A stretch of 64,000 nt of DNA, from the NCBI RefSeq assembly GCF_021021475.1, contig NZ_JAINWL010000002.1, positions 682,001 through 746,000 on the forward strand. Direction: 5' to 3'. Every line of letters begins with the position of its first letter. Within the stretch, counting starts at the first letter, position 1. A model generated the notes under the pieces. The model had not been told where the DNA came from, did not search any database, and saw only the letters and a program-made list of their open reading frames with translations. The position numbers and the translations under genes were made by a program. Positions 26,653-52,025 of the stretch are shown piece by piece. The DNA is from Citromicrobium bathyomarinum. GTDB taxonomy: Bacteria > Pseudomonadota > Alphaproteobacteria > Sphingomonadales > Sphingomonadaceae.

Positions 26653-29589
26653 TCAGCCCATGGTTCGAAGGCCTGCTAGAATGGAGATGGCCGGAGGTTC
26701 ATCAACCTGTAGTGCGCCGCCCCTGTAAGCATTGATCAACGCTAACGCTTCTTCCATGCACATCTCGAGCGACATGCACTGTCGCTCAAGAGCAGCCACC
26801 TGCCCCAGCCATAGTTCTTCCGGTACGCCCTCTGGTCGGCCTGCTCTGCGACGCTCTGCGGCTAATTCGCGGTTTCGAAGTTCTGCAGAATAGCTGGCAG
26901 CAGTTTGCGCTGCGATGATTTCCAGTCGGCTTGCAGCCTGCTGGCGTGCCGTTTTGTGGAAATCCTTGCTGACCTTGGCCACGTGCATCCCATTCTCTGC
27001 TTCCCATCTCTCTGCCAGATCCCTGCTGACAACTGGCTGGGTTGCGGCCTTTCCTCGGGCCGCTGCTTTGCCGTCTTCAGCAAACGGCTGAAGGCATGCC
27101 TCGACTTCTTCCCGAGTCAGACTCCGATAGCCATCGCTCGATTGCGCAGCGCCGGACAGAACCAGCTGCGCCGGTGTCGAAAGCCGGACGGCCCGTTGGA
27201 TTGCCTGCCAATGGCTTCTCAGAGCCTTCCGATCCTCTAGCAGTTGTGTGCGTTGAGCTTCGGTCGGTGTAGTTTTGAGCAGCTTTTGTGCTGAGACTGA
27301 CCAGAGCTCAGGAATAAAAGAGTCCGGAAACGGATCAAAAAGGGTCGCTGTCAGGAAGACATTGCCACCCACAGCAAGAGCAGAGTGACCCTCGGGGAGC
27401 ATGACGATCATCTGCACCGTGTGTTGTTCTCTGCCGAAGCTCGTTTCCGCAATTGCCCGGTATCCGGCGACTAGGGCATCGAAAATGTCGTTCCCGTTAT
27501 CGATGAAATGAAGCGGTCGCCCAGTATCTTCACCTTGGTCGGTCAATACCGATCGGCGAGGGGGAGAAGCCATGTCAGCACGACGCAAGATGCAGGGCAC
27601 GTGATCCGCCATCCATCGGTCAGTACCGACCCCAGGCAAAAGAAAAGGGCTTTCAGCTGCCCGGTTTTTCTCAGTTCGCGGATACCAGAGCGTCCGGAAC
27701 ACGTAGCTGTCAGACTTGTCTTTCCTCACGTCGACATCGAAATCAGAGGCCTTGCTCATGAGTTTGAGCCAAGATCCGATTGCCCGCTCTTTCTTCGCGA
27801 CAGGATCTCGGCCCTGCACATCGAGCGCGAGAGGCCTGTTCTCGCCTACGTTCTGAACCCAGATATCGGACAGATTCCGAGCTTCATCTGCCATCTCGGA
27901 AACTTCCTGCCTGAAAGTGCTGGGCAGACTTTGTTCGGTCTCGGCGAGCTTTGGGATGTCGGCCGGTATCCGGCCAGCAATAGCCGCTCGAGCCAGAAGT
28001 TCCTGCACGTCCTCAAGCTGTCCCGGTGACAAGGGTGGTAATGGCGATCCAAAGACACCCATGGCGTCCATGCAGTCTGCAACCGCGGCTTCCTGCGACC
28101 CTTCGACCAAGATTCTCCAGATATCTACCCAACGCTGCCCATCTCGGTCAGCACTCCCCCCATTCAGTCGATCAATGCGCCCGATCAGCTGGTCTATGCT
28201 GTCAATTTCCCAAGGAAGAGCGTAAAAAATGATACTGCTCGAGACCTGATGCAGGTTGAGACCCGCCTGCACCCAGTCACCGACCAGCAACAGGCGGCTT
28301 TCCCCCGAGTTGAGCGGTGCCAGTGTCGCCTGCATCTCTCGAAGATTCGCCACTCTGTCCTCTTGGCCCGCAGATGGCCGGCGCAGTATGGAGATTGCAT
28401 CATCAAGTTCAGGAAAATATCGAGGAAGGGCCGCAACCAGCATCTCGATCGTCGGGTTGTCGCCGCAGACGATAACGAACTTCCGATCCGGTTTCCTAGC
28501 CCATTGGTCGGCTAGGATGTCGAGAAGCGCGGAAAGTCGTGAATCTCCCGGGTCATCTAGGGTAAGCTGGCGGGCTGCAGAGGCGACCATTCCAAGCTGG
28601 TCGCCGCGCTCGGCGACATCACCAAGTACGGAACGTGCAGCCCGTGCACTTCGCTGCAATGACTTCGCCGCAGTCCAGTGAGGGCCCTCGAAACCAGACC
28701 TCGGATCCGTGTTGCCTACCAGTTCAAGTGCGATCTCGGACCTGAGCCGCTCATGCTGCAGTGGTTGGACACGAACCACATGATTCCGTCTTCGCGGGAG
28801 CCGATCGCTCCAGTCTCTCCTGCTGTTCCGGATGATACGCCTTCCAGCAGCGTACTGCGCTTGTACGACCGGCAGGGGTTGATCGTCATCCTCCAGTGCC
28901 GCCATGCCGCTGGCCTCGCGATCCGCGAGGAGCTCGTCGATTGTCCTCTCCTCAAATCTCGCGAGCTTTGCAAGCTCTGGCTCCAAAATGTGCATGAGCG
29001 GATTTCGCCAAGTCACGTCAGCAAGACGAGGTGTCGCCGAAAGTACCAGCACCTGCCGAAATCCTTCCGTAAGCTGGGAGATCGTCTGTACGGTCTCGCG
29101 CGGCATCGTCTGGGGTTCGTCGATAATGATAAGATCGAAGATCTGGCTGTCAGCCTGGAAGAGCAATGTGCCTTCTTCATCCCTGACAGTGAGATCACCG
29201 GCCCGGACGAGAGTGATCGGCGGCAGATTTGCCTTATCGAAATCCGACTCTCCGACCAAGGCGGGCATAACGTGCCCTTTTGTCCAGCACTCATCCTGCC
29301 ACTGTGAAAGAAGGTGGCCGGGAAGCACCACCAAGGTCTTGTGACTGGGGTCTTGGAACCTGAGGGCGTTGATGACCATGAGGGCCTGAACCGTCTTCCC
29401 GAGGCCGACTTCATCACTGATCAGGTGACGTATGCGAAACTCGCCGAGTAGCTTGCGAACGGTGGCGAGCTGATGCGGAAGTGGATCCGCGGCAACGCCA
29501 AGCGCGCCGCACAGTCCCTCGCTTAGCGCAAAGGCGTGCATGCGCCATGCACCCACGCAATTCACGAATCTCAAGTATGGATCGTTCAT
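26653..29589 (-). CDS. SNF2/RapA-family helicase, DrmD-like
   Basis: 978 residues. The N-terminal ATPase lobe has SDEVGLGKT (Walker A, residues 58-66), QWQDE, the Walker B box as DEPQ (157-160) where SNF2 proteins usually have DEAH, and LSATPR (183-188). The C-terminal lobe has GLNL (443-446) and DQLIGRIDR (466-474). The last 500 residues are less conserved and partly charged coiled-coil. The RapA-like lobe order and context beside drmA/drmB suggest DrmD, the SNF2 helicase of class 1 DISARM; identity with DrmD needs a profile search. Start ATG overlaps the stop of the 987-residue gene (ATGA), so the two are co-expressed leftward. Confidence 0.8.
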   Translation of the reverse strand: MNDPYLRFVNCVGAWRMHAFALSEGLCGALGVAADPLPHQLATVRKLLGEFRIRHLISDEVGLGKTVQALMVINALRFQDPSHKTLVVLPGHLLSQWQDECWTKGHVMPALVGESDFDKANLPPITLVRAGDLTVRDEEGTLLFQADSQIFDLIIIDEPQTMPRETVQTISQLTEGFRQVLVLSATPRLADVTWRNPLMHILEPELAKLARFEERTIDELLADREASGMAALEDDDQPLPVVQAQYAAGRRIIRNSRRDWSDRLPRRRNHVVRVQPLQHERLRSEIALELVGNTDPRSGFEGPHWTAAKSLQRSARAARSVLGDVAERGDQLGMVASAARQLTLDDPGDSRLSALLDILADQWARKPDRKFVIVCGDNPTIEMLVAALPRYFPELDDAISILRRPSAGQEDRVANLREMQATLAPLNSGESRLLLVGDWVQAGLNLHQVSSSIIFYALPWEIDSIDQLIGRIDRLNGGSADRDGQRWVDIWRILVEGSQEAAVADCMDAMGVFGSPLPPLSPGQLEDVQELLARAAIAGRIPADIPKLAETEQSLPSTFRQEVSEMADEARNLSDIWVQNVGENRPLALDVQGRDPVAKKERAIGSWLKLMSKASDFDVDVRKDKSDSYVFRTLWYPRTEKNRAAESPFLLPGVGTDRWMADHVPCILRRADMASPPRRSVLTDQGEDTGRPLHFIDNGNDIFDALVAGYRAIAETSFGREQHTVQMIVMLPEGHSALAVGGNVFLTATLFDPFPDSFIPELWSVSAQKLLKTTPTEAQRTQLLEDRKALRSHWQAIQRAVRLSTPAQLVLSGAAQSSDGYRSLTREEVEACLQPFAEDGKAAARGKAATQPVVSRDLAERWEAENGMHVAKVSKDFHKTARQQAASRLEIIAAQTAASYSAELRNRELAAERRRAGRPEGVPEELWLGQVAALERQCMSLEMCMEEALALINAYRGGALQVDEPPAISILAGLRTMG

Positions 29590-32549
29590 GACATGACCGT
29601 TTCAGGCAGATCTCTGGCGGTAAGCCGCCATCTCAATGTGACATAGCGCACGGCACGGGCTGTCTGAGGATCTGACACAGCACGAGCGAGAGCGTCAGCC
29701 CAGTTCTCGTCTGCAACCACTTGCGCTGGCGATAGCCAGAACTGGAGCAGAGCGCGAATTTCGGTCCTGCCCATCCATCTGAAGCCGGGCCTCCTGAAGC
29801 TGTCGACATGACAACTGTCGAGCAGATCAACCAGATCGTCCTGCGTGAGATCACCATATGATGCGCCGACCAGCGTGTCCCAGCGCCGTGCCGGAAGTAT
29901 CTGTGATCGGAACATTGGTAGAGTTGTGATCTCGCTTGCTTCCTTGAGAGCGGAAAGCCAGACATGGGGCAGCCTGCTCATATCGGGTTCCTCAAAGGTC
30001 TCGAGGCCATGATCTTCATGATATCTGCGCAGGTCGTCATACGCATCGATAACAGCCATATCGAGATCAGCTGCAGTCTCGTCGCTCCATTCGGCAATGG
30101 CTTGGTCCAGATCAGGGAGTTCAAGCCGTAGTCGCTCTAGGAGAAAAGTGTTCAGCCGGGTCTGATCGGATCGGTTCGTAATCGGTGGCAGCTCGTTCCC
30201 TCTCGTCAACCATCGTCTCCCCGCGCAATTGAGCAGCGCTCCGTGAGACGTGAGAATGGAGAGATCTAGTTTGGCCTCCTGTTCAAACCATGGATCGCCG
30301 CACAGAATTTGTATCAATGCAGCATCAAGTTCCTCGGCTATCAGCTTTCGCTTCCAGTCACCGACCGCGTTGCTGCAGCTTGCCAGACGCCAGGCGACTG
30401 ACGCGCGCGCAAGGTCCCCTATTCCGGGCATCTCAGAACTACCGGATGCCTCACGAATGACTGGCGGGACCCTGCACTGCTCGGGGGCAATCGAGTTCCG
30501 ATTTCCGATCAGCACAAGACCTGAGCTGAGAGCTTCGTGGTCGCTTGCATCCGGCATGACAAGACGCAGGTCTGACATCCCGTTCCACTGGCCTCGCGGC
30601 AGGGGAGAATCAGCTGTCGCACACAAAGACCCCACTGGTGTGGATGACCCGTCTTCGGTCGACCACAATTCGGTGACAGGGTCGAAGAGCCGACGGTTGA
30701 TCGGCGGCGGCAGGTCGACGAGCATTGCGCGGAACCCATCCACTTCCACCCGCAACCTAGCGGTGGCTAGCCCGACCTGCTCCGATATCAGATGCGATCT
30801 GATTTCGTGCAGGATTCCGGAGCTTCCACGGATGAGACAGGGCACACGTTCCAGAACTCCGTGGGCGTCAACCGGGGGGCGGCCTGATGCGGATAGTCGC
30901 ATACGAACAGGCACATTCTCCAACGCGACGGGGGCAGTGATGCGAACCGAAAGATTACCACTCTCGAGATCGGCTATGGTGGGTGATAACGGGTCGACGA
31001 ATATTTCTGCCCGCTCTGTCTCTGGAGCCTCGACCACCTCGAACTCGATCGTGCCTGCGTCCCCGCCGATGTCTTCGATCGAATGTTCGCCCGGTTGCGG
31101 CTCGAAGACCCACCAGGTCCGCTCGCCAAACCGATCGAACTTCGAAGGGGCGCGTTCCGCGTCAAGCCTCAGAGGAGCGTTAGGAACCTCTGTCGAAGCC
31201 ATTACGCCGAAACCTGCAGCGAACTTCGCAATTTCACCGGGTAGTGGAAGACCCAGAACCCTTAAGCCCGAACGGGCTGAAGAAACGTGAAAACCAGCAT
31301 TCCTCAACAGTTCCGCATCGGCTTTGTCATCGGTCGAAAGCCAGTGGAACTCGGGTGTCTCGTCGTCGACGGAAGCTCCCCATCTTATAACCTGCGATCC
31401 GGTGGGGATTCGTTCACCCGGGAAGACAGCAAAAGCCTCTACGCCCCCGGCACCAACGAGAAAGTAGGACGCGACCTTCGGCTGCAGAGCGGAAAGCAAC
31501 CTTTCACTGGCATCATCTTCCTGTGCTCTCGTGCCTTCCCGGCGGAGCGGGCTTTGGGGCAAGCTGGTCGGGGCACCGATCGCCATTGAACCACCAAAGA
31601 GAAAAAAGTGGAGGTCGACCGCTCTATCGGAGCCAATCGCCCTGATCCTGTCTCCAGCGCATCGCAATAGGATCGTCACTTCTTCTCTCACCTCGGTCGA
31701 GAGAACCGGCCCTCGGATGAGCACCGTTGTCGGTGTCTGCTCCATCAGGGAAAGAACGAAACGCGCCGGTGGTATATCGGTTACGGCTTTCGCCCTGCGT
31801 TCCGTGATGCGTCGGGCCTCCCGGATTGCAATGGAAGAGGCGGCGTCCTTTCGCAGATCGTGATCGATGCGAGCCAGTATCTCGTCTGAAAGCCAGCCTG
31901 CCGACCCCGGATAAAGGAGCCGTCTGGTCACCTCAGTCGCGGTATCGGCCTCATGAAGCCAGTTCTCGAACCTGCGGCCAGCCTGGCCTGCAGCAACCTG
32001 GACGAGGTATCGATAGAGCGCGTCAGGGTCTTTCCCAGAGAAACCCGCACGGAGCGCCTGTTGCAAAGCTCGGGCTAGCTGAGGCTGCAGCTCGAGCGGG
32101 ACCAGTGCATTGGCAATTGGCCAAGCGATCAGCGGGAAATGGAGCTCCCATGGACTCTTTCCCGGTCTCGCTATTGCATTCTCGCGATGGGCAACCTCGA
32201 AAAGGCGGACGAGCCCCGAGCGGAAACCGCTTCCGGCGGCAACATGGAGATCCTGTTCGATGACGGGCCAGAAATCGGTGCCCGTTCCCCGATAGCGATA
32301 TCCTACCTCTGCGGTTGCCGCGAGCAGCGGCAGATAGCACCAGTTCCACTGCGGACTGGAGAGACCAGGATCGAGTTCGAGCTGCCGTCGCAGCAGGTTT
32401 CTCAGGTTCGATAATTGTTCGGCATTCCGGCCGTGTTCGATCATGAATACGGGAAATTCGCCGCGATAAGCCGAAAGTTCTGCAATGTGATCGCCGATTT
32501 CGCGATGTTCTTCTTTCAGGGATGCAAACGCCGGCATTGTTGCTTTCAA
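29586..32549 (-). CDS. Large uncharacterised defence-island protein (987 residues)
   Basis: I do not recognise a family. Residues 1-260 look mainly helical, 260-620 beta-rich with Ig-like or barrel-like strand patterns (VRITAPVALENVPVRMRLSASGRPP), and 690-987 again helical with many Trp/Leu. I see no P-loop, nuclease, methylase or phospholipase-D motif. It is first in a two-gene leftward unit with the SNF2 helicase (four-base overlap) and divergent from the UvrD/drmAB unit. A structural, DNA-loading or sensor partner of the helicase is the simplest inference. The codon composition is like the rest of the island. Confidence 0.8.
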   Translation of the reverse strand: MKATMPAFASLKEEHREIGDHIAELSAYRGEFPVFMIEHGRNAEQLSNLRNLLRRQLELDPGLSSPQWNWCYLPLLAATAEVGYRYRGTGTDFWPVIEQDLHVAAGSGFRSGLVRLFEVAHRENAIARPGKSPWELHFPLIAWPIANALVPLELQPQLARALQQALRAGFSGKDPDALYRYLVQVAAGQAGRRFENWLHEADTATEVTRRLLYPGSAGWLSDEILARIDHDLRKDAASSIAIREARRITERRAKAVTDIPPARFVLSLMEQTPTTVLIRGPVLSTEVREEVTILLRCAGDRIRAIGSDRAVDLHFFLFGGSMAIGAPTSLPQSPLRREGTRAQEDDASERLLSALQPKVASYFLVGAGGVEAFAVFPGERIPTGSQVIRWGASVDDETPEFHWLSTDDKADAELLRNAGFHVSSARSGLRVLGLPLPGEIAKFAAGFGVMASTEVPNAPLRLDAERAPSKFDRFGERTWWVFEPQPGEHSIEDIGGDAGTIEFEVVEAPETERAEIFVDPLSPTIADLESGNLSVRITAPVALENVPVRMRLSASGRPPVDAHGVLERVPCLIRGSSGILHEIRSHLISEQVGLATARLRVEVDGFRAMLVDLPPPINRRLFDPVTELWSTEDGSSTPVGSLCATADSPLPRGQWNGMSDLRLVMPDASDHEALSSGLVLIGNRNSIAPEQCRVPPVIREASGSSEMPGIGDLARASVAWRLASCSNAVGDWKRKLIAEELDAALIQILCGDPWFEQEAKLDLSILTSHGALLNCAGRRWLTRGNELPPITNRSDQTRLNTFLLERLRLELPDLDQAIAEWSDETAADLDMAVIDAYDDLRRYHEDHGLETFEEPDMSRLPHVWLSALKEASEITTLPMFRSQILPARRWDTLVGASYGDLTQDDLVDLLDSCHVDSFRRPGFRWMGRTEIRALLQFWLSPAQVVADENWADALARAVSDPQTARAVRYVTLRWRLTARDLPETVMS

Positions 32550-32733
32550 TTCAAACGCGGCTTTTTCGGGGGTATTCCAAAAAGGCGGTTGCCCCTAATC
32601 GCCCTATCGGCAACATACTGACCCACAGATATGAGGCAGGTCAACATCGATCTGTTGCCGCATAATGTTAAAATTGTTAACTTTTTGGTGTCGGGTGGCA
32701 ACAGGCTTGCATGATTATTCGGAACTGCGTCGC

Positions 32734-35037
32734 ATGGCAGATCTTGTGCGAAGTTTCGTGCATGCGCGCAAGTCAGCCAGCGTCGCAGAAATCAGCGAAT
32801 GGGCGAGGCAATTTCTGGAGCGGGGGCCGAATACCGGCCTCGATGCACGACTGGATGCGACGATCAATCTACTGTGCACGACGGGTGATGTCGGCTTCGG
32901 CAGCATACGGAACGAACGTGTGCTGTTTTCCTTGGCAGAGCGGATCATAAAGCTCCCCGACGGCAGATCGATTGCTTTGGGCGATCACGGGATGCCTATG
33001 GAAGCGAACCAGGATGCGCTTTTCCCGGAAGCCGGTGCTCCCCCTACGCACAGTCTGCTTGAATATCTTCAGGAGCTCGATGACGCGCCACCTCCTCGGA
33101 TCGGCAGGCCGCTATCGCCGGCGGGCAAGTGGTCGGAACAAAAGGCAATTCCAAGGGAACTCTCCCGGGCCCTTGCACTTTGCGGCAAATTCGACCCGGT
33201 CACTCTCGAATGGTCCACGAGCAAGGCAAACGCCGATTTTCTCAGCGAATGGTTCGGCGCACTTCACGATACTGAGCCACGAGCAGACCCGGCGGGATTT
33301 GATGACAAGCAGGAAGAGGCAGTCGGGGTTCCGGCCTCTGGAAGGATGATAATCGAGGCGGGCCCCGGATCGGGAAAGACCTTTGTCGCATGCACGCGGG
33401 TTGCATCGCTTGTCGAACGCGAAGAGGCCATCCCGTCGCGGATTCTCGTCCTGAGTTTCACGCGCGTTGCCGTCGCGGAATTGCGCGACCGGATATCGAC
33501 ATTTTCTCATGGATCAGGAAGAACGGCGTCGGTCCACATCCGTACCTTCGATGCTTTCGCCTCGCGCCTGCTCGCGATTGCCGGAATACCGGCCAAGGGC
33601 GAACATGACGCGAGCATCCGTGCGGCCACCCGCATTCTCCAGAGTCGCGATCCGCTGGTTCTCGATGTCGTTGATCGCTTCGAGCATGTTGTCATCGATG
33701 AGGCACAGGATCTCGTCGGCGATCGCCATTCTTTCTGCGAGGCGCTCGTAAATGCCCTTCACCCAAGTTGCGGAGTCACCGTTCTGGGTGATCCGGCTCA
33801 GGCGATCTACGGGTACCAGGCTAACGACCCTGACGCGGCCTCATTCATCGAGGTTATTCGTGATAGGCCGGATTTCGCGATCTTGCGCCTTGACCGCGAC
33901 CACCGGACACGGTCGGCTCCCTTGCGTGAAATGTTCGCAGGCTGTCGCGAAAGACTGCTGGTACCGGAGCCCGATCCGAAAGCACGATATTTCGACATCC
34001 GAGAGCGTATTCAGGCAGCTGCCGTCGAAAGCGGATTAACCAGCTTTTCCGGCCACGCATCGACAACCCGTGGCCTAATCCTGACCCGAACGCGTCGCTC
34101 TCTACTCACCGTGGCCGAGACCTTGCGGTCTCAGGGCCGTGCATTCCGCATGCGTGTGCCGGACCGGCCTCTGCATGTCGAGGCTTGGATCGGTGCGACG
34201 CTAGGCGGCCTGCCCGGCAAAGAGAGAATTTCCCGCGATGGCTTTCTCGCCCTGTTTGAAGACCTCACGCCTTCCTGCGGGCGGGATGCCCTCGAATGCT
34301 GGCAAATTCTTCAAGATCTTGACGGATCGATTGGCGAACATGTCGTCGTCTCGAACATAGCGGAAGCTCTAGAGGACCCGCCTCTTGGAATTGTGCGCGA
34401 GCATGAAGGTAGTGCAGGACCCCTGCTGTCCACGATCCACGCAATCAAGGGGCGGGAAAGCGACCGCGTACTTCTGCTTCTGACACGGGCTCCGTCTGCG
34501 GAAGACGTCGACTGGGACGAGGAAGCGAGGGCGCTGTATGTCGGGGCGACGCGTGCGTCCGCCGAGCTGCGTACGGCATGGATTTCCCCTTCCAAGTACT
34601 ATCGAACCGGTCAGCCGGAACGATACTGGGCACCGCGAGCGAATTACAGAATGCTTGAGATCGGCCTCGATGGCGACCTATTAACGTGGAGCGAACTTTC
34701 GAAGAAAGGACTGCTCGACAATCCTCGAGCTACCATTGCTGGGATCTGGTCTGCGGCAGGCGCATCGGCTCCAATCCGGGCCGTCCGCGACCGGGATGGA
34801 AATTACCTGCTGTTCGCTAATGACGGGGAACCTCCCGCGCTGGGCTGCCTTTCCGGGGCCTTCATAGAGGCCATGGGCACAATCATTCAGGCAACCGGAG
34901 ATGACGCCGGCCCTGAGGCGGTTGACGGCATCATGGTCTCTGGCGCCACGACCGTTGTCTCCAGCGGGCTAGCTGGGAATTTACCTCCTATCGGGCTTAT
35001 GCCCTTGCTTAGTGGCTTCTGCAGGATCGATCGCTGA
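32734..35037 (+). CDS. UvrD/Rep-like superfamily 1 helicase of the defence island
   Basis: 767 residues from ATG 32734 (MADLVRSF); an upstream in-frame ATG at 32665 has no ribosome site. The first 200 residues are unassigned. The helicase core has the P-loop EAGPGSGKTFVA (about 206-217), LVLSFTRVAVAELRDR, motif II VIDEAQDLVGDR (about 320), GDPAQAIYGYQ, LDRDHRTR, and a C-terminal STIHAIKGRESDRVLLL with LYVGATRAS. All UvrD-type motifs look intact. It starts the rightward unit that continues with drmA-like 26 bases later. Confidence 0.88.
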   Translation: MADLVRSFVHARKSASVAEISEWARQFLERGPNTGLDARLDATINLLCTTGDVGFGSIRNERVLFSLAERIIKLPDGRSIALGDHGMPMEANQDALFPEAGAPPTHSLLEYLQELDDAPPPRIGRPLSPAGKWSEQKAIPRELSRALALCGKFDPVTLEWSTSKANADFLSEWFGALHDTEPRADPAGFDDKQEEAVGVPASGRMIIEAGPGSGKTFVACTRVASLVEREEAIPSRILVLSFTRVAVAELRDRISTFSHGSGRTASVHIRTFDAFASRLLAIAGIPAKGEHDASIRAATRILQSRDPLVLDVVDRFEHVVIDEAQDLVGDRHSFCEALVNALHPSCGVTVLGDPAQAIYGYQANDPDAASFIEVIRDRPDFAILRLDRDHRTRSAPLREMFAGCRERLLVPEPDPKARYFDIRERIQAAAVESGLTSFSGHASTTRGLILTRTRRSLLTVAETLRSQGRAFRMRVPDRPLHVEAWIGATLGGLPGKERISRDGFLALFEDLTPSCGRDALECWQILQDLDGSIGEHVVVSNIAEALEDPPLGIVREHEGSAGPLLSTIHAIKGRESDRVLLLLTRAPSAEDVDWDEEARALYVGATRASAELRTAWISPSKYYRTGQPERYWAPRANYRMLEIGLDGDLLTWSELSKKGLLDNPRATIAGIWSAAGASAPIRAVRDRDGNYLLFANDGEPPALGCLSGAFIEAMGTIIQATGDDAGPEAVDGIMVSGATTVVSSGLAGNLPPIGLMPLLSGFCRIDR

Positions 35038-35063
35038 GGACCGCATGGATCGGGAAATATGAA

Positions 35064-38000: not shown

Positions 38001-38225
38001 CAGTTGAATTCATTCTTGGACGACTGGTTCGACCGGGATGGTCTGAAGGACTACTGGCTGGACTATGGCGACGCACTTCTCACCTCGGCAGAAGCGGCTG
38101 CGGAGAGGGGCAATCGGGCTCGGTTTGCGGGGCAGCGTCCGACGCCCAACTCGATGCGCTCGGTTGAAGCCTCGACCGCCTTCGTATTGCTCGAAGGCGT
38201 GCGCCAGGAAGGCAACAGACGATGA
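35064..38225 (+). CDS. drmA: DISARM-type helicase DrmA
   Basis: 1053 residues. The helicase core is characteristic of DrmA: LLWFPTGGGKTEAYL (Walker A, about 424-438), a four-Cys zinc motif (CPCCHQ ... CKSASC, about 551-575), IQDELHLISGPLGSLTGLYE (motif II DELH, about 632-650), GSTATIRRAEDQ, and the C-terminal motifs SNMISVGMDVSRLGLM and QATSRVGRS (about 865). The N-terminal 400 residues are a family-specific region. In DISARM, DrmA and DrmB form a DNA-engaging complex. The next gene overlaps by four bases. Identification is from motif pattern and the DrmB neighbour. Confidence 0.9.
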   Translation: MVEARDILVARMRTDLIGPSETSEIISDRPTDRYLTGILFPPRTGASPEEDDEAADADDAEFSGTSLDSVKAASTFRPSSAGLSFAVRPTVSEASLDIVIEAARYRAVDTEGSEEPRAQNRRAKLWQRMPLRAGITLNLSNPEAVGHEPISLAEKGIADASLHVRIARWAEILLVTVALTNDAKPAKTHSRQANEEAALFQVSLSVTCQEGCRFTPKPDRSGHAEADDDARASALLYRDVRQWAVGHTCSAVWDEAEDATVGKLSSSWLPETTVHLVSAAGDVEFGETESRKALDAGWLANESEEGLAAGLLAFIDAYSQWIEKNEATFDTLPKESVEQAKIHLTRCREAEQRMRRGVSLLREDAQVLAAFRMANAAMALQYSWREEPDPPKLSWRPFQLGFALLCLESIADDESPDRETMDLLWFPTGGGKTEAYLLLTAFTAFLRRLRAEGAMSGAGVTVFMRYTLRLLTIQQFERAAALISACELVRLGEEPAGSAEVPDHFRSDMPISLGLWVGEGATPNSVKAAEMALETESDNSPAQLKNCPCCHQELTWDLSSDRKRVEVSCKSASCRLADCLPTLPVWTVDEDVYRAQPTLLIGTVDKFAQLVRNQASGRLFGIGTEADPPSMVIQDELHLISGPLGSLTGLYEAAVDEMCRNKSGRRAKILGSTATIRRAEDQISALFDRRSFQFPPPGLSHRNSGFAVEDREAPGRHYVGVTTVGRSAKFAQQAVAASLLQSAGDPGISDVVRNGYWTLVNYFNSLRELGGALSLMRDDVDRTISDYCSRRPGEIEREAGTQIELTSRVRSSEIPGFLKDLERGWDDPDHIDVVLASNMISVGMDVSRLGLMLVNGQPKTIAEYIQATSRVGRSRSFPGLVVTLFNAAKSRDRSRYETFSTWHRSLYRDVEATSVTPFAPRARDRALHAPYVALVRHLIEGMEDPSKIVDHQHEAEALLERIVERIQRIDAQEAAAAREQLNSFLDDWFDRDGLKDYWLDYGDALLTSAEAAAERGNRARFAGQRPTPNSMRSVEASTAFVLLEGVRQEGNRR

Positions 38226-40036
38226 AGTTGATTGGCAAGATCCGCCGCAGCCAGGTCCTTTCGAACGGTCCGGGTGCGATCATTGATTTCCGCGGAGACA
38301 GCGGAGCCCCGCTGTCAGTCGTTGCTGCAGGACTTGAAACCTGGGACAGGATGTCTGCCAAGCCCGGCCTCCTCAATGAGCAGCGCATCAGTCACGAGCC
38401 GCTGCAGGCGCGGCTGAATGTCCGAGGATTCCGTCTCCCACCGGTCGGAGACGAGAAGGTCGGTAACTCGAGCAGACCGCGCTTCGTGCCTGCATACCGT
38501 TTCCCGGACTGGCACGTCTGCCCGAAATGCTATCGGCTGCAGCGGAGCCGGTTTTGGAGTTCCGAACTCGACCGGCCAGAACTTTACTGTGCCGAGTGTT
38601 CAACTGGTCGCGGACGGCGCGCCAGGAAATCGTTCGTGGTTCCGGTCCGCTTCGTGGTCACCTGTGCCTCGGGACATCTTCAGGACTTTCCATGGGCGTC
38701 GTGGCCTCGCCACAATTCTGCCTGCACCCGTAAGCGGCCGCTCAAGCTCATCGGGAAAGGGGCCGGTCTGAAGGGACTTCGGGTCCATTGCACGGAATGC
38801 CTGGAGGAGAGAGATCTGGATGGGGCTCTCTCTCCCGGAGCTCTTGGCAAGATTTCGTGCGAAGGCCGTTCTCCCTGGCTGCAAACAGAGCCGACCGGAT
38901 GTGCAAACGAACCTGTCGCGATCCAGCGCGGTGCATCCAACGCCTATTTCCCTGTGGTAGCGTCAGCTCTCGATGTTCCGCCGTTCGGAGGAACGTTCCG
39001 GGATTGGCTCGACGAATTCTGGGCCGACCTGACAAGCCTCGCCGATCGGGCACAGGTTCCTGATTACGTCAGAAAAAAGATCCACCCCTACTGGCCAGAC
39101 CAGACGGTTAGCGCCGAGCAGCTGTCGTCGAAGATTCTCACTCTCCTCCACATACTTGACGACGACGGCAGCGATCTTCGCGTCAATGAGCACCTCATGC
39201 TCTGCTCTGGTGGCAGCAAGGACGAACACTTCCCGGAATTCCGGATCGTGCCGCAGGATCCACCTACACAATTCCTAGGCCTGTTCGATCATGTGGTGTC
39301 GGTCGAACGTCTCCGGGAGGTGCGGGCTCTGAGAGGTTTCACGCGGCTCAGCCCCGCTGAAAGTGCAGGAAGTGCCTTGATCGCTCAGTTGTCAGAGACT
39401 GCCTTGAACTGGCTGCCGGCAATCGAGGTGCGTGGCGAAGGAATATTCCTCGAGTTTAACGGGCAACGGGTCATGGAATGGGAACAGATACCTTCCGTGG
39501 TCGCTCGAGCCCGCACTGCTCACGAGGCTGCCGAGCGCAGCTGGCGTGAGCACAACGGCGACGAGCGTCCGTTCCCGATGACGATCTCGCCGAGGTTTCT
39601 TCTGGCCCATACAACGGCACATGCTCTCGTTGAGCAACTTTCGCTGGATAGCGGATACTCGACAGCTTCCATACGTGAGCGGCTCTACGTGTCCGAGGGA
39701 CTCGATGGCATGTGCGGATTTCTGCTCTACACATCTGCACCGGACGCCGACGGGACCCTCGGCGGACTTTCGCGCAAGGGTCGATCGCGGGAGTTGGTTT
39801 CCATCCTCTCTGGAGCACTGCACGGTCTGGAGTGGTGCTCCGCCGATCCGCTTTGCGGTAGCGGAATCCTGACTCTTTCAGAGGGTTCGGGCTCCGCCGC
39901 ATGCCATTCGTGCTGCTTTCTTCCGGAAACATCCTGCGAACACTTCAATCGCCATCTCGACAGGGCGATGCTGGTGGGAACACCGCAAGCACCCGAGATC
40001 GGCTACTTCAACGCACTCCTGAAAAAGAAGGTCTAG
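38222..40036 (+). CDS. drmB: DISARM-type DUF1998 protein DrmB
   Basis: 604 residues beginning KIRRSQVLSNGPGAIIDFRG, a typical DrmB opening. A zinc-finger region (CPKCYRLQ ... CAEC, about 99-125; CASGHLQDFPW) is followed by a long middle region and a C-terminal DUF1998 domain (about 456-600) with HTTAHALVEQL, LYTSAPDADGTLGGL and the Cys cluster CSADPLC ... CHSCC ... CEHFNRHLDR. DrmB partners DrmA. Coupled to drmA (ATGA) and one base before the next gene. Confidence 0.92.
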   Translation: MKLIGKIRRSQVLSNGPGAIIDFRGDSGAPLSVVAAGLETWDRMSAKPGLLNEQRISHEPLQARLNVRGFRLPPVGDEKVGNSSRPRFVPAYRFPDWHVCPKCYRLQRSRFWSSELDRPELYCAECSTGRGRRARKSFVVPVRFVVTCASGHLQDFPWASWPRHNSACTRKRPLKLIGKGAGLKGLRVHCTECLEERDLDGALSPGALGKISCEGRSPWLQTEPTGCANEPVAIQRGASNAYFPVVASALDVPPFGGTFRDWLDEFWADLTSLADRAQVPDYVRKKIHPYWPDQTVSAEQLSSKILTLLHILDDDGSDLRVNEHLMLCSGGSKDEHFPEFRIVPQDPPTQFLGLFDHVVSVERLREVRALRGFTRLSPAESAGSALIAQLSETALNWLPAIEVRGEGIFLEFNGQRVMEWEQIPSVVARARTAHEAAERSWREHNGDERPFPMTISPRFLLAHTTAHALVEQLSLDSGYSTASIRERLYVSEGLDGMCGFLLYTSAPDADGTLGGLSRKGRSRELVSILSGALHGLEWCSADPLCGSGILTLSEGSGSAACHSCCFLPETSCEHFNRHLDRAMLVGTPQAPEIGYFNALLKKKV

Positions 40037-40037
40037 A

Positions 40038-41687
40038 ATGGCCCGAATGTACCCCGGAACGCTGCCCGAGCACGTCCTCAAGAACCCAAAGCTCTCATCG
40101 GAAATTCGGGTCTACAATACCATCCGCGATCGGCTGCCTGCGGGCTATCGATGCTACTATTCCCGCTCGTGGCATGCTGCTGACGGAGATGGCGGTGAAT
40201 TCGACGGTGAAGCCGACTTCATCGTGTCGCATCGAGAGAACGGCCTTCTTTTCCTCGAGGTGAAGGGAGGGAGGGTAAGTTGTCGAGAGTCGGATAATCA
40301 GTGGCTCACCACCGACAGGGACGATTTCACGTTCAAGATCACAAGCCCTGTTACTCAGGCGATGAGGAGCAAGCATCATTTCCTCAAGCGCCTCAAGGAC
40401 CGCATCGGCAATCGCTACATCCGTGCTCGCCACGGAGTGATACTCCCCGGCAGTACGCGTCCCGTGCGTGCTCTTGCAGCAGATGCACCGCACGAGATCG
40501 TGGCATTCGGCAACGATATGGCGGAACTTGATCGATGGATCGTGCGCCGCATGTCCGGCATTAGCGATGATCGCGAAGTGCCATTGGGCATGGATGGTGA
40601 GCGGGCACTCCAAGAAATCTTGGCGGGTCATTTCGAACTGCAGGCTCACATCGGTTGCAGTCTTGCCGATGACGCGGTCGAAATTGAGCGACTCACCAGT
40701 GAGCAGGCTTGGATTCTCGACTCACTCGACCACAACCGGCAGCTCGCGATCACGGGTGGCGCGGGGGCGGGGAAGACTGTCCTTGCAATCGAGGCTGCCG
40801 TACGTTCGGCCGCCAGCGGGCGCCGAACCCTGCTGACATGCTTCAATGTGCCACTTGCGAACCATCTAAAGAAGATCTGTCCAGAGAACCCCAATCTCGT
40901 CATCGCGGGGTTCCACTCGTTGTGCGGCAGCCTGTCGGCACAGGCCGGCCTAGACATCCCAGGCCGGCAGGATGCAGACTTCTTTCAGGAAGTCCTGCCG
41001 AACGCCTTGGTAGAGGCCGTCGATCGGATGACCGCCCTACGTTTTGATACGGTGATCGTCGACGAGGGACAGGATTTCGCGGATTCGTGGCTCGATGCTC
41101 TCCGCCTGACATTGAGCGACATGGATACAGGTCGCTTCTATGTGTTCTACGATGACAATCAGCGCCTCTACTCTCATGAGGGCAGTTTCCTGTCAGCATT
41201 ACCGCAGTCAGTGATTCCCCTTTCCCGAAATCTTCGCAACACCCGACGGATCCATGCTGTCATGGCGAAATGGTACGAGGGAAGCAGGTCCACGCCCGCA
41301 GGACCTGAAGGCGAGCCTGTTGCGATACACGAATGCAGGACTGGAGAGCAGGCACTGAAGGTGGTCATGGACAGAATCAGGATGCTGACAAGTTCGGACC
41401 AGCTTAAGCCGGACGATATCGCGGTTCTGGATGCATCTGGGAAGGTGGCACTAACTGAGAGGATTGCCGGGGTAAGCGCCTGCCGCGCAGACAAGGTCGC
41501 CTCGAATTCCGTGATTTTCGATACCGTACTTCGCTTCAAGGGCCTATCCCGCCCCTGTGTGTTCCTGATCGGCATCGAAGGATTGAGAGATCCGGAGAAC
41601 ATCTATGTCGCGACAAGCCGCGCCAACGTTCTACTGGAGGTTGCCGGACACCCCGACGACATCGCTCGGATAATGTGTTCGAGTTAG
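40038..41687 (+). CDS. NERD-nuclease / UvrD-like helicase fusion
   Basis: 549 residues. The N-terminal NERD domain carries a restriction-nuclease-like core with conserved Glu, Asp and Lys: GEADFIV (about 56-62) and FLEVKGG (about 71-77). A superfamily 1 helicase follows, with P-loop ITGGAGAGKT (about 236-245), VDEGQDFADSW (about 340-350), SRNLRNTRRIH and a C-terminal VATSRANVLLEVAG. It starts one base after drmB, so it belongs to the same unit. In this locus it may supply the nuclease activity that DrmC-like phospholipase-D proteins would provide; that is inference. Confidence 0.88.
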   Translation: MARMYPGTLPEHVLKNPKLSSEIRVYNTIRDRLPAGYRCYYSRSWHAADGDGGEFDGEADFIVSHRENGLLFLEVKGGRVSCRESDNQWLTTDRDDFTFKITSPVTQAMRSKHHFLKRLKDRIGNRYIRARHGVILPGSTRPVRALAADAPHEIVAFGNDMAELDRWIVRRMSGISDDREVPLGMDGERALQEILAGHFELQAHIGCSLADDAVEIERLTSEQAWILDSLDHNRQLAITGGAGAGKTVLAIEAAVRSAASGRRTLLTCFNVPLANHLKKICPENPNLVIAGFHSLCGSLSAQAGLDIPGRQDADFFQEVLPNALVEAVDRMTALRFDTVIVDEGQDFADSWLDALRLTLSDMDTGRFYVFYDDNQRLYSHEGSFLSALPQSVIPLSRNLRNTRRIHAVMAKWYEGSRSTPAGPEGEPVAIHECRTGEQALKVVMDRIRMLTSSDQLKPDDIAVLDASGKVALTERIAGVSACRADKVASNSVIFDTVLRFKGLSRPCVFLIGIEGLRDPENIYVATSRANVLLEVAGHPDDIARIMCSS

Positions 41688-42116
41688 GCTATAAAGAGCT
41701 GAGAAGGCGGCCCCTCAAGGGTCTGCTTACCGGGAAGTTCCAAGCATTTCTTTGCCAAAGGTTTTCCGGAGGACCTTTCAAGGCGTCCCCCGCTTTTAGG
41801 ACAATACCTCGGTAGTGAGTGGGATAGTCGCTCGAGGATGACTTGGCGTATTGCCGGCAAGGCCGGTTGCGGACGAGGACCGAAGACATTTTTCCACCGC
41901 GCCAGTGAGCCTTCGGGATTGCAAGAAGGGGTAAGCCTTTAATGACATCAAGGCATGGCGGTGAAGCCTGGTCCAAGATCATGTGACACAACACGTAGCT
42001 AAACGGCATGCCCGCCACGACTGTGGACGGCGGAGATACAAAACAGGAACAAAACCTTGCTTGGCGGGACTCTGTGTGCCACGATGTCATTCCCTGACCC
42101 AGCAATGGAGAGCCCT
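41688..42116. other. Spacer between the DrmAB unit and the restriction-modification genes
   Basis: 429 bases with no gene I can support. A minus-strand frame of 138 codons covers most of it but has no family resemblance and a Ser/Pro/Arg composition. The promoter of the methyltransferase should lie in the last 150 bases. Confidence 0.45.
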
Positions 42117-43355
42117 ATGGCCGAAGCGCCCTTCCTGTTTGCATCCGATCTCCACAAGGCGGGGCTTGATCCCGATACCGCTGCTGGAGAGCTTGGCGTT
42201 TCGCCGCGACAAGTGAAGCGGTATATTGCCGGCGACTGCGATGTACCGAAGCTGGTGCGCGAGCGCGTGCGCGACCTTGCTGTGGCCCGGCGCAGGAAGC
42301 CGCAGGCCAAGGCGGCATTCCGCTTCATCGATCTGTTCGCCGGGATTGGCGGAATGCGCCTCGGTTTCGAAGCCATCGGCGGACAGTGTGTCTTCACCAG
42401 TGAATGGGATCGCTTCTCGCAGAAGACCTATCTGCACAATTTTCCCGATGGCGATGATCACGTGTTTGCAGGAGACATCCGTCCTTTCGGAGAGAGCCCC
42501 TCGCTCATTCCGGAATTCGATGTGCTGCTTGCAGGCTTTCCCTGCCAGCCCTTCTCTCTCGCTGGGGTCTCAAAGAAGAATTCCCTAGGTAGAGCCCATG
42601 GGTTTGCCTGTGAGGCTCAGGGTAACCTATTCTTCGAGATCGCCCGCATCATCGATCATCACCGTCCGGCCGCCTTCCTGCTCGAGAACGTGAAGAACCT
42701 GCAGTCGCATGATGGCGGGCGGACATTCGAGGTGATCCGCGAGACGCTGACGAAGGACCTTGGCTACAATATCGATTTCAGGGTGATCAGTTCGGCGCCC
42801 TTCGTTCCGCAGAAACGGCAGCGCATCTTCATCGTGGGTTTCCGCGAGGACGTGAAGTTCAGCTTTGCCGACTTCGCGAAAATGCTCCCCCCCGAAGAGG
42901 AATGGCCGACGCTCGGCTCGATCCTCCAGTCGCATAACGAGATCGATGCGAAATACACGCTGACGCCAAAATTGTGGGACTATCTCCAAGCTTACCGAAA
43001 AAAGCACGAGAAAGCGGGCAACGGTTTCGGATTCACGAGCCATACGCCTGATGATGTCGCCCGCACGCTTTCGGCCCGCTATCATAAGGACGGTTCGGAA
43101 ATCCTGATTGAGCAGAAAGGCACGCGCCCGCGACGACTCACCCCGACCGAATGCGCCCGGCTGATGGGCTTCGAGCGCGACGGGCGGGACTGGATCATCC
43201 CAGTGTCCGATACCCAAGCCTATCGCCAGTTCGGCAATGCGGTCGTCGTACCGGTCATCGAGGCGATCGCACGGTACATGAAACCTTCGCTTGATCGCGC
43301 GCTCGAGCTGGAGAAGGCGAGCCTGCACGGAAGGCAGTTGGCCGAAGTTGCCTGA
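42117..43355 (+). CDS. dcm: DNA cytosine-5 methyltransferase, Dcm-like
   Basis: 412 residues from ATG 42117, preceded by GGAG (42107-42110). The N-terminus (about 5-60) is helix-turn-helix-like (TAAGELGVSPRQVKRYIAGD). The catalytic part has FIDLFAGIGGMRLGFE (motif I), GFPCQPFS (motif IV, Cys143), LLENVKNL, PQKRQRIFIVGF, a target-recognition region, RRLTPTECARLMGF and YRQFGNAVVVPVI. Similarity in layout to Dcm (CCWGG) and the adjacent Vsr and MvaI/BcnI-like genes imply CCWGG or a related target. It could serve either the restriction enzyme or, as DrmMII does, a DISARM locus. Confidence 0.92.
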   Translation: MAEAPFLFASDLHKAGLDPDTAAGELGVSPRQVKRYIAGDCDVPKLVRERVRDLAVARRRKPQAKAAFRFIDLFAGIGGMRLGFEAIGGQCVFTSEWDRFSQKTYLHNFPDGDDHVFAGDIRPFGESPSLIPEFDVLLAGFPCQPFSLAGVSKKNSLGRAHGFACEAQGNLFFEIARIIDHHRPAAFLLENVKNLQSHDGGRTFEVIRETLTKDLGYNIDFRVISSAPFVPQKRQRIFIVGFREDVKFSFADFAKMLPPEEEWPTLGSILQSHNEIDAKYTLTPKLWDYLQAYRKKHEKAGNGFGFTSHTPDDVARTLSARYHKDGSEILIEQKGTRPRRLTPTECARLMGFERDGRDWIIPVSDTQAYRQFGNAVVVPVIEAIARYMKPSLDRALELEKASLHGRQLAEVA

Positions 43356-43827
43356 CGTCGTGGATGCCATGACCCGCAGCCGGATGATGTCCGCCATAAG
43401 AGCGCGCGACACAAAACCGGAGATGCTTATCCGCTCTGGTCTTCACCGCATGGGCTATCGCTTTCGCCTGCACGAGAAGCGACTACCGGGAAAACCGGAT
43501 CTCGTTTTTCCTTCCCGGAATGCGGCAATCGAGGTACGCGGCTGTTTCTGGCACGGGCATGACTGCCACCTGTTCCGTTGGCCCGCTACGCGACGGAAAT
43601 TCTGGCAGGAAAAGATTGCCGACAATATCGCGCGCGATGTCCGCAACAGGGAAGCGCTGCTGAAAGCGGACTGGCGCTTGGCAGAGGTATGGGAATGCCA
43701 GCTGAAAGGGCGTGAAAAGCTTCCCGTTCAAGACGTACTAGAACGCCTTGCAGAGTTTCTGGACGGGGAGGACAGGCACAGCGTCATCGGAAAGGATCAG
43801 ACTGTTGCAGTTTGCGAAGATGCATAG
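43348..43827 (+). CDS. vsr: Very-short-patch mismatch endonuclease
   Basis: 159 residues from a TTG at 43348 that overlaps the methyltransferase end (GTG 43360 is an alternative). Vsr nicks beside T:G mismatches arising from deaminated 5-methylcytosine. Motifs: MMSAIRARDTKPE, LPGKPDLVF with the catalytic Asp, AAIEVRGCFWHGHDCH with zinc and active-site residues, and FWQEKIADNIARD. The C-terminal 31 bases overlap the convergent restriction gene. Confidence 0.93.
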   Translation: MPDVVDAMTRSRMMSAIRARDTKPEMLIRSGLHRMGYRFRLHEKRLPGKPDLVFPSRNAAIEVRGCFWHGHDCHLFRWPATRRKFWQEKIADNIARDVRNREALLKADWRLAEVWECQLKGREKLPVQDVLERLAEFLDGEDRHSVIGKDQTVAVCEDA

Positions 43828-45140
43828 AGCTGCTGCATTGCCTCTGGAAGTCGCGAGGAGTTAATCCGCCACTGTGGGCGCGGTTTGGTCTTGCCATCAG
43901 CATATATCGTGTGTGCGGGATCGTAGAAAACTAGGCCCGAGGCGATCCCGCGCAGCAGTCTAAATACATCTGTCCCGGCACCAGTGACCCAAGTCGGACC
44001 ATAGGCGTATTCGTTTCCTCCGCGTTCGCCGATTCTGCATTTAGCTGGAATGTAGAGCGCGTTCGCGTGTTTCGCATTCCAGCAGTTGGCAAGCTTGTCG
44101 ATCGACCACCCTGCCGCGATTGTTCCATCGTCCGCATCGAACAGTTCGACGCCAATGCGGTTCTCGGCATCGAATGTGCCGGTGGTGGGATCGTACCCTG
44201 TTACGCGCATAGCGAGGCCCGTGCCCGTGCAGGTCTCGCCGGCGCGGTGCAGCCCGACAAACCGGTGCGTTCCATCGCCTTTCAGGCTTGGCCGGCCAAA
44301 TCGCTCCATAAACTCACGGAAGCTGTGCTCGCCTTCAAAGCCGTAGTCTGCAACTGGGGTCATCAAACTAATCCGGCTGCCCGAATATGATTTGATTTCA
44401 AAGCCGTGGGCATCGGGCTTCTTGTCCGCATTGGCGACCACACCGAGTAACGCCTCGAGCGTGTAACCGCCGCCCTGATTACCGGTGAAAGGCTTGACCC
44501 CGCTCGGTTTCATAATTCGTGACCAATGCCAGCCCTGCCTCACGATCGCTGAAATCTCACGGTGCAGAATGGTAGCCGGATCCTCGAAGCCAGTCTGGTC
44601 GACGAGCAGGATCTGCAGCACGCCGCTCGAGGATACGAAGGGAAGTTCGGGGAATGCGCGGACAAGCGAGTCCTCGCGCTCTGTCAAAATGAGACCCAGA
44701 ACCGTCCCGTCACGCCCTGTTCCCAAAACGAGGACACGCTGGCCGTATGCCCTCTGGTTTTCGCGGCGCAGCGCATCAGGAGGGTTGGTGCAGTCCCTCA
44801 GGAAGCCCGACATCCGGACCTCTGGGTACTGGAAATAGTCGATGATCTTTGTGTGCGGCGCCTTAAAACGCTCGCCCGACCTGCTCAGCCAAGCGAAATT
44901 CAGCTTCGCCTCGATGATCGGCTGTCCGGCTTTTGACCTGCGCTTCTGAGTGCTGGTACTGCCTTCGCGGAATGACAGTCTTGCGGGGAATAGGTTGATG
45001 AGACCTGGCAGCTGGCTGCCGAAATAGATCTGGTTCTTCTCGTTGTCCTGCTTCTCGCTCAGCTTCTTGATATAAGCTGTGCGTACTCCTTCGCGCTCGA
45101 GAAACGCACGCAATTGACTGATATCTATGAAACCGGCCAT
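43797..45140 (-). CDS. MvaI/BcnI-family type II restriction endonuclease
   Basis: 447 residues. The pattern AKLNFAWLSRSGERFKAPHTKI, a central GGGYTLEALLGVVANADKKPDAHGFEIKSYS with the D..E.K nuclease core, and a C-terminal LRGIASGLVFYDPAHTIY fits this family. MvaI cuts CCWGG and BcnI CCSGG; which applies here cannot be read from sequence alone. A long N-terminal region (about 200 residues) precedes the catalytic part. Convergent with vsr, giving a compact modification/repair/restriction cassette. Confidence 0.85.
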   Translation of the reverse strand: MAGFIDISQLRAFLEREGVRTAYIKKLSEKQDNEKNQIYFGSQLPGLINLFPARLSFREGSTSTQKRRSKAGQPIIEAKLNFAWLSRSGERFKAPHTKIIDYFQYPEVRMSGFLRDCTNPPDALRRENQRAYGQRVLVLGTGRDGTVLGLILTEREDSLVRAFPELPFVSSSGVLQILLVDQTGFEDPATILHREISAIVRQGWHWSRIMKPSGVKPFTGNQGGGYTLEALLGVVANADKKPDAHGFEIKSYSGSRISLMTPVADYGFEGEHSFREFMERFGRPSLKGDGTHRFVGLHRAGETCTGTGLAMRVTGYDPTTGTFDAENRIGVELFDADDGTIAAGWSIDKLANCWNAKHANALYIPAKCRIGERGGNEYAYGPTWVTGAGTDVFRLLRGIASGLVFYDPAHTIYADGKTKPRPQWRINSSRLPEAMQQLYASSQTATV

Positions 45141-46637: not shown

Positions 46638-47123
46638 ATGAAAGAGCCTAAAACCGGCGGTAGCGGTCAGAAATTCGCGACTACGGTCTATTGGGAAAGC
46701 GAGGAGCAGAGGCAGCGGGTAGAGAACGCCGCGCGCGGGAATGTATCTCAATATGTGCGCGAACGTGTGCTGTTCGACGAGGGGTATGCAGATCCGCGCC
46801 ATGATGTCGCGGCGCGGCTTATGCGGCTGGCCGACGAATTGTCCGGCGAACTGCATGCCGCAGGAGATCTCGTGCGGGCGCTCACGGCTTTGCGACAGGA
46901 TCGTCATGCATTGCCGGCGCATGCACACAACCCTGCCATCGAGAGGGTCGAGCGTGAGGTAGAAGCGCTCATCTCGCGGCTACTGGAAAGCCACCAGCAC
47001 CGCGTCGACCTGTCGCAGGAGCTGATCGCAGCGATCGCCAGCTACAGCGAGGCCTGCGCGGACTGGGAGGTCCGGCAGAACCGTGCCGCCACCCGCCAGA
47101 AGCGCGGGAGGGCAAGCGGGTGA
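46638..47123 (+). CDS. Plasmid mobilisation accessory protein (MobC-like)
   Basis: 161 residues from ATG 46638 (MKEPKTGGSG). The N-terminal part TTVYWESEEQRQRVENAARGNVSQYVRERVLF resembles ribbon-helix-helix relaxosome proteins; the C-terminal half is helical and probably coiled-coil. It overlaps the relaxase start by four bases. Expected role: binding oriT and helping the relaxase nick it. Identification rests on fold pattern and neighbour. Confidence 0.75.
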   Translation: MKEPKTGGSGQKFATTVYWESEEQRQRVENAARGNVSQYVRERVLFDEGYADPRHDVAARLMRLADELSGELHAAGDLVRALTALRQDRHALPAHAHNPAIERVEREVEALISRLLESHQHRVDLSQELIAAIASYSEACADWEVRQNRAATRQKRGRASG

Positions 47124-50827: not shown

Positions 50828-50849
50828 CATGGCGGTCCGAAAGGATTTC

Positions 50850-51938: not shown

Positions 51939-51966
51939 CTCCAAACTTCAACAACAATCCAATTTT

Positions 51967-51998: not shown

Positions 51999-52025
51999 GT
52001 TCTCCCCTCGAAAGGTATTTTCGCA

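Follow-up and report, generated by a model that had tools for sequence, protein, structure and literature searches.

The window analysed here is a 64,000-nucleotide stretch of the Citromicrobium bathyomarinum genome (3.2 Mb; contig NZ_JAINWL010000002.1, positions 682,001 to 746,000). At window positions 26653-41687 it carries six adjoining genes, among them clear relatives of the DISARM genes drmA and drmB. The question raised by this locus is whether the six genes make up a single defence system and, if so, of what descent. It was judged likely that they do, in two modules: a Druantia-related pair, composed of a protein termed X and an SNF2-type translocase, and a DISARM-type quartet, composed of a UvrD-like helicase, DrmA, DrmB and a NERD nuclease-helicase. 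This judgment was made because the layout recurs, the X-SNF2 pair is constant, the distances of the modules agree, and X is homologous to a Druantia protein. It was also made because DrmA and DrmB match a solved complex, the DrmA proteins form a fully supported clade, the motifs are present, and homologues occur on plasmids. A preliminary description of the window had proposed a DISARM-related defence locus with a non-canonical gene set; this is supported, and the set is conserved. It had also seen a mixture of class 1 and class 2 traits; the locus is better described as a DISARM core joined to a Druantia-related module.

By the open reading frames of the window, the six genes form two divergent units. 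X (29586..32537), on the minus strand, is followed by SNF2 (26653..29589). On the plus strand, UvrD (32665..35037), DrmA (35064..38225), DrmB (38222..40036) and the NERD-helicase (40038..41687) follow one another in that order. The start sites of X and UvrD are separated by an intergenic region of 127 nt (32538..32664). Within the units, X and SNF2 overlap by 4 nt, as do DrmA and DrmB; gaps of 26 nt and 1 nt separate UvrD from DrmA and DrmB from the NERD-helicase, respectively. Nine proteins of the locus, including those of a neighbouring methylase gene and its companions, were compared with the PADLOC, Pfam and NCBIfam libraries; for three of them, the best 25 PADLOC families were listed. All of the genes named in the preliminary description were recovered as open reading frames in their places, and the family matches confirmed its identification of DrmA, DrmB, UvrD, the NERD protein, the C5-cytosine methylase, Vsr and the MvaI/BcnI enzyme. 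Motif patterns were found in the four ATPases (SNF2, UvrD, DrmA and the NERD-helicase), in the NERD nuclease and in the methylase; Vsr matched neither of the two patterns tried, despite its clear family match.

Recurrence was assessed by scanning one genome collection, which yielded 23 X loci (collected loci are designated by L numbers). X was followed by SNF2 in all 23. The arrangement of the window, in which X-SNF2 diverges from UvrD-DrmA-DrmB-NERD (architecture A), was found in 14. Six had architecture B, in which X-SNF2 is followed by a convergent protein of ~320 aa, a NERD-helicase and a giant YprA helicase. The other three were cut by contig ends, and their layout was therefore not assigned. 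This outcome of the neighbourhood survey favours a real unit. The exceptions within architecture A were L028, with the NERD gene on another contig, and L025, with a split NERD frame; the NERD gene of L027 was cut in the stored stretch and whole in the genome. The divergent arrangement around the intergenic region was similar across architecture A loci. In architecture B, the ~320-aa protein was recognised by BLAST in five of six loci and matched DruD weakly (1.3e-5 in L010, 0.0074 in L032 and 0.0025 in L034). The giant helicase of L010 is DruE1-like (1528 bits); the window locus has no such fused, DruE-type YprA helicase, but split DrmA and DrmB instead.

A plasmid search returned six records with X, including Rhizobium and Azospirillum plasmids that carry all six genes (in the Azospirillum record, the SNF2 gene spans the record start). 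One contig from a viral collection also shows architecture A; it was found with the X-family alignment, while a search of viral contigs with a single X protein gave none. No DrmA was found in a search of phage records. Of 396 genomes of the order, four had X, one of them being the window genome; of the other three, one locus was cut by a contig end, one had architecture B and one was Druantia-like (L014). DrmA at E up to 1e-100 was present in 5 of 385 genomes of the class, again with the window genome included. The six-gene locus is rare and conserved among a number of alphaproteobacteria. A near copy of the Rhizobium locus L008 is found in Rhizobium leguminosarum RCAM0626 (L016), where X, UvrD, DrmA, DrmB and NERD are each in pieces, by inactivation or sequencing errors.

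The 987-residue frame reported earlier for X exists, but it opens with a TTG at 32549; the ATG at 32537, which gives 983 aa, is the more likely start. As had been reported, X matches no known family: nothing in PADLOC, Pfam or NCBIfam recognised it and, at E up to 1, no Pfam family was matched by more than two of 24 members of the X family. The AlphaFold2 model (pLDDT 81, pTM 0.54) predicts a helical N-terminal part, a strand-rich centre with immunoglobulin (Ig)-like domains and a helical C-terminal part; the Ig-like matches lie at residues 421-682. Neither X nor UvrD matched Pfam DrmE_C. X was also compared with five DrmE-like or DrmE-positioned proteins and matched none (E above 0.3 throughout). 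A DrmE relationship of X was rejected provisionally, because such models can miss DrmE: the DrmE-positioned protein of L047 itself matches none of them. DruH and YjiT were rejected as sequence relatives of X (E of 0.15 and 0.53 in hmmsearch; in hhalign, E of 0.23 and 0.032 at probabilities of 0.3% and 1.6%, respectively).

The earlier view of X as a protein without relatives was not sustained. By sequence comparison, X is a distant homologue of a protein from a Druantia type I-like operon, in which its gene lies between those of DruA and DruD. In this operon of Nitrosococcus watsonii (L068), DruA (so named by annotation) comes first, followed by a 955-aa protein, DruD (490 bits) and DruE (2068 bits). 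The 955-aa protein matched X in BLASTP at 2e-14 over X residues 22-256. A hidden Markov model of the X family gave it 118.8 bits in hmmsearch, and gave 135.7 bits to a protein of L014; the hhalign probabilities were 99.6% (E 5e-24) and 99.7%, respectively, over about residues 3-760. In the reverse direction, tblastn of the Nitrosococcus protein against plasmids retrieved the X genes of Rhizobium, Azospirillum and Leisingera (5e-10 to 3e-4). The X profile was also run against 4,421 frames of the collected loci; the 25 weakest matches at E up to 0.1, which were the ones listed, came only from X loci and from the Druantia-like loci L014 (the same locus as L005), L067 and L068. In L014 (genome G224), the distant X relative directly precedes a clear DruD (582 bits) and a giant helicase that is 34% identical to that of L010.

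Druantia type I has five genes, of which DruB, DruC and DruD have neither family nor assigned function (PMC7251935). PADLOC models, DruC among them, matched neither X nor the 955-aa protein. The DruC model also had no match in one record or in 398 genomes of the phylum, controls included, and is thus uninformative on DruC of the E. coli type. A DNA search for DruE in E. coli genomes obtained nothing. In a Druantia I-like locus on the Sinorhizobium medicae plasmid pMl4 (L067), the X relative occupies two frames; DruD is also present, and the helicase region contains a gene for an IS3 transposase.

The partner of X, SNF2 (978 aa; Pfam SNF2-rel_dom, 3.7e-11), is a translocase of the RapA/DpdE/DrmD/ArmA type. 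It had been called a DrmD-like SNF2 helicase, of which the second part stands. It is probably not a true DrmD, and was rejected as one: it scored 63.5 bits against the NCBIfam DrmD model (cut-off 610) and a higher 122.9 bits against DpdE (cut-off 500), both far below threshold. An E. coli plasmid encodes an ArmA-type helicase to which SNF2 is 24% identical (2e-18). Two phospholipase D-helicase models matched only the SNF2 part of the window protein. The profile searches of the core proteins, a check put forward in the preliminary description, were accordingly divided in outcome: DrmA and DrmB were matched, no model recognised X, and SNF2 stayed below the DrmD cut-off.

In the quartet, DrmA is a YprA-type superfamily 2 (SF2) helicase of 1053 aa. 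It scored 703 bits against PADLOC DrmA and 918.5 bits against NF038325, slightly below the equivalog cut-off of 950. DrmB (604 aa) has an MZB/DUF1998 zinc cluster and scored 466.9 bits against NF038324, over the cut-off of 240. The two proteins matched the solved Serratia DrmAB complex (7s9v) at 2e-141 and 6.6e-80, respectively. Residue 5 of the window DrmA corresponds in the alignment to residue 137 of the Serratia protein; thus, it lacks the EVE-like N terminus that has been reported in class 1 DrmA (PMC12458937). At the position of the trigger loop (residues 176-232 of Serratia DrmA; PMC9142583), the aligned window protein holds a shorter acidic stretch. UvrD (790 aa; Pfam UvrD-helicase, 3.1e-28) is a GajB-like superfamily 1 (SF1) helicase with an N-terminal region of ~210 aa of no recognised fold, which is missing or short in three relatives (L041, L042 and L049). 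The NERD-helicase (549 aa) consists of a NERD nuclease domain (Pfam NERD, 2.1e-6) fused to an SF1 helicase (PADLOC RTasNERD-Hel, 7.8e-53), and occupies the slot held by DrmC in L043 and L051. In a tree of 31 DrmA proteins, those of the quartets formed a clade of 20 rows, window included, with support of 100/100 and to the exclusion of six class 1 rows. Its placement beside class 1 was weak (86/76), with long branches.

Pairwise distances of X, SNF2, UvrD, DrmA and DrmB were compared among 15 architecture A loci (the window, L008, L017-L024, L026, L027, L029, L031 and L040; L009, L016, L025 and L028 were left out). Distances of X and SNF2 were correlated with r of 0.99. For all 15 loci, X distances gave r of 0.63 with DrmA, 0.56 with DrmB and 0.81 with UvrD, values reached by 3, 10 and 0 of 2000 permutations, respectively. 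When L027 was removed (n = 14), r rose to 0.989 for SNF2, 0.985 for UvrD, 0.983 for DrmA and 0.951 for DrmB, each reached by 0 of 2000 permutations. L027, from Paracoccus sp. JM45, is a natural swap of the quartet: its X and SNF2 share 95-96% identity with the L018 proteins, and its DrmA and DrmB share 85% and 93%, respectively, with the corresponding proteins of the Shinella record L049. At positions 5414-9846 of L027 there are two tandem UvrD-like frames, the first of which apparently joins an L018-like start to an L049-like rest; this junction apparently marks the swap point between the modules.

The six genes taken together with these exchanges suggest, as far as gene content can tell, that such defences are assembled from swappable modules. 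A report that DruE of a Druantia III can be replaced (PMC13316683) may bear on this modularity. On a Tsukamurella plasmid (L042), UvrD-DrmA-DrmB is followed by a DrmD-type helicase instead of NERD. The row at 8795-29120 of that record reads Dcm, a RelA/SpoT-domain protein, UvrD, DrmA, DrmB and the DrmD-type helicase, continued by a gene annotated as a methylase subunit and a Zn-binding-domain gene, so that DISARM and ARMADA-like parts stand together. Another DISARM-like order was seen in L062, L064 and L065: a C5 methylase, an unassigned protein of ~900-1100 aa (the L062 and L065 proteins are related), a NERD-type helicase, DrmA and DrmB. On a 33-kb Photobacterium plasmid (L046, 9983-17749), DrmA-DrmB precedes an SF1 helicase and an unassigned 483-aa protein; a helicase similar to this one follows DrmB in L063.

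Several observations weigh against the reading of the six genes as one system of two modules. The quartet occurs without X in three settings: in Shinella sp. PSBB067 (L049, 3998-19714), after a WYL regulator and a type III-type methylase and restriction helicase, with no X-SNF2; in Rhizobium rhizogenes, after Dcm-AAA-DUF2357-Vsr; and in another genome, after a Dcm gene and with DrmB interrupted. X-SNF2, in turn, is also paired with DruE/DruD-like genes, and the quartet swap of L027 supports separable systems. DrmC, DrmE and DrmMI were not found among the nine locus proteins in the three libraries (the rest of the genome was not searched for DrmC), in agreement with the earlier statement that drmC and drmE are missing from the locus. 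The drmC part of this evidence is weaker than had been supposed. Among six class 1-type loci with incomplete gene tables, drmC is annotated in L043 and L051 and not in L044, L045, L050 and L054, and DrmC appears non-essential (PMC9142583); its absence therefore discriminates weakly. The GC content of the locus (0.586), lower than that of the left flank (0.665), speaks for the two-module reading, although the right flank, at 0.604, is about equal to the locus.

Independent occurrence of the halves is what would be expected if X-SNF2 and the quartet were two separate defence systems sharing an island. This explanation was considered unlikely. All 20 scan loci on long enough contigs have X-SNF2 next to a YprA-type helicase set that includes a NERD-helicase (14 with DrmA/DrmB and 6 with the giant helicase, counting L028 with its NERD gene on another contig), and without L027 the distances of the modules agree at r of 0.95-0.99.

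A second explanation is an ordinary DISARM variant: DrmC would have been lost or replaced, and X would be a known subunit that evolves fast. It draws on the clear DrmA and DrmB matches, on the four of six class 1-type loci in which DrmC is unannotated, and on the neighbouring methylase. C5-cytosine methylases are a class 2 trait of DISARM. That of the window is Dcm-type (42057..43355, plus strand; Pfam 3.3e-80, PADLOC MTase_II 1e-149 and DrmMII 6e-125), and its position varies among loci. It is accompanied by the mismatch endonuclease Vsr (43291..43827, plus strand; family matches in all three libraries) and an MvaI/BcnI-family restriction enzyme (43797..45140, minus strand; Pfam 2.2e-25), a companion restriction-modification set that begins 369 nt downstream of the six genes.

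The surroundings of the other loci were examined for such methylases. A C5 methylase (PF00145) was present in 14 of 14 scan genomes with architecture A; this says little by itself, because 10 of 14 control genomes also have one. It lay within 5 kb of one end of the locus in nine of the 14 (L017, L018, L019, L020, L021, L024, L025, L028 and L031), and not in L022, L023, L026, L027 and L029; in L026 and L027, the contig ends within that distance. In L018, L020, L021 and L028, the methylase match is convergent with the NERD match and ends 172-173 nt from it. With the window, L008 and L009 added, the count was 12 of 17, with varying end, orientation and type; distances to NERD or SNF2 were calculated manually, in part from the ends of matches instead of genes. 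N6/N4 methylases (PF01555) were present in 14 of 14 genomes and 11 of 14 controls, and within 5 kb of NERD in one of 14 (L019). Among the loci whose layout was mapped, the Rhizobium copies L008 and L016 were the only ones with an MvaI/BcnI relative adjoining the six genes.

The Dcm/Vsr/MvaI set is thus a variable companion, frequent but not fixed, and was rejected as a fixed component. A merely incidental C5 methylase was rejected as well, given the 12 of 17 loci with whole-genome positions within 5 kb. Its proximity is suggestive only, because defence islands gather methylases; it weakens, to the same extent, a reading without any methylase and one that makes Dcm indispensable. Against the DISARM variant stand X, which has no family in three libraries and no match to the five DrmE-like or DrmE-positioned proteins yet matches a Druantia-associated protein; SNF2, far below the DrmD cut-off; and the quartet DrmA clade, which excludes the six class 1 rows. 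The variant was accordingly regarded as quite improbable. A role in DNA repair or plasmid maintenance rather than defence, for which it can be said that YprA-type helicases also function in repair (PMC12458937), is very improbable for a gene set that is rare and patchy, often lies beside restriction-modification genes and occurs on plasmids.

The locus is, then, probably a modular DISARM-Druantia chimera, predicted to be a DNA-targeting anti-phage system. The Serratia DrmAB complex is opened by single-stranded DNA with a 5' overhang, and methylation has been proposed to repress DISARM (PMC9142583). By analogy, DrmAB of the window would be held inactive until a free single-stranded 5' end is met, such as phage or plasmid DNA may expose on entry or during replication. 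With its Ig-like centre, X could be a sensor or docking subunit that, coupled to the SNF2 translocase, sets when or where this engine acts. UvrD and SNF2 would be the DNA motors, with UvrD opening the DNA further. The NERD domain, a nuclease of the PD-(D/E)XK type that is joined to an SF1 helicase, would cut the DNA in place of the phospholipase D nuclease DrmC, and the adjoining C5-cytosine methylase, where present, may mark self DNA.

A bolder proposal is put forward tentatively: that the locus represents an undescribed defence class whose sensor module, the Druantia-related X-SNF2, cooperates with an effector module of DISARM origin, the quartet, and that each half is naturally exchanged, the front end for type III restriction-modification or Dcm/AAA/DUF2357/Vsr genes and the back end for DruE/DruD/NERD. 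If true, DrmAB would be a general plug-in DNA-processing engine whose choice of target is set by the front end. The natural swap and the alternative pairings frame the question of whether DrmAB is such an engine, steered by interchangeable sensors. Through X, an unnamed Druantia-associated protein gains a wider family and a predicted architecture, and DISARM and Druantia are tied by a shared subunit other than a helicase. DISARM-type systems without DrmC may have a NERD nuclease as their cutter.

Directly to the left of the locus, a sigma-54 response regulator appears split over two overlapping frames (24741-26239). The first frame contains the receiver and most of the AAA domain, and the second contains the end of the AAA domain and the helix-turn-helix; it may therefore be a pseudogene or reflect a sequence error. 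To the right (47120-52928) lie a 910-aa protein with an LPD7 domain just below threshold and two exonuclease-like proteins, looking like mobile-element cargo.

No description of the six-gene set was found in the DISARM, Druantia and ARMADA literature among open-licence PMC papers. With Druantia type I the locus shares X, homologous to the Nitrosococcus watsonii protein between DruA and DruD; it differs in having split DrmA/DrmB in place of DruE and no DruA or DruD. DruA corresponds to PF14236 (PMC7251935), which had no match among the nine locus proteins (the rest of the genome was not searched). The DruH protein of Druantia type III has helical ends around Ig-like domains (PMC13192584), as does the predicted model of X, but no sequence homology was found: the X profile against DruH of one E. 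coli plasmid gave E of 0.15 and 0.23. ARMADA type II also brings together an SNF2/BrxHII-like helicase, a YprA helicase and a GajB-like UvrD helicase; it is set apart by a YprA-DUF1998-Vsr fusion and a PglX-like methylase, both absent from the window locus, and its ArmD bears a RelE-like domain (PMC12458937). TALON likewise combines a YprA helicase with a NERD nuclease, but its YprA protein is ARMADA-like, it also includes genes for TPR-CSD and TBP, and it is largely confined to Chloroflexota (PMC12458937). With DISARM the locus shares the split DrmA and DrmB core, in that order and matching the Serratia complex, an SNF2 translocase and, often, a nearby C5 methylase. It differs in the UvrD-like helicase and NERD-helicase that share an operon with DrmAB, in the addition of X, and in a DrmA without the N-terminal ~136 residues of the Serratia protein. 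A different DISARM-like association, with ShdA, has been described (PMC10270631). The DISARM-like clade holds many uncharacterised classes, and a DISARM-like cassette beside McrBC is among the arrangements reported (PMC12458937); the window locus may well belong to one of these classes.

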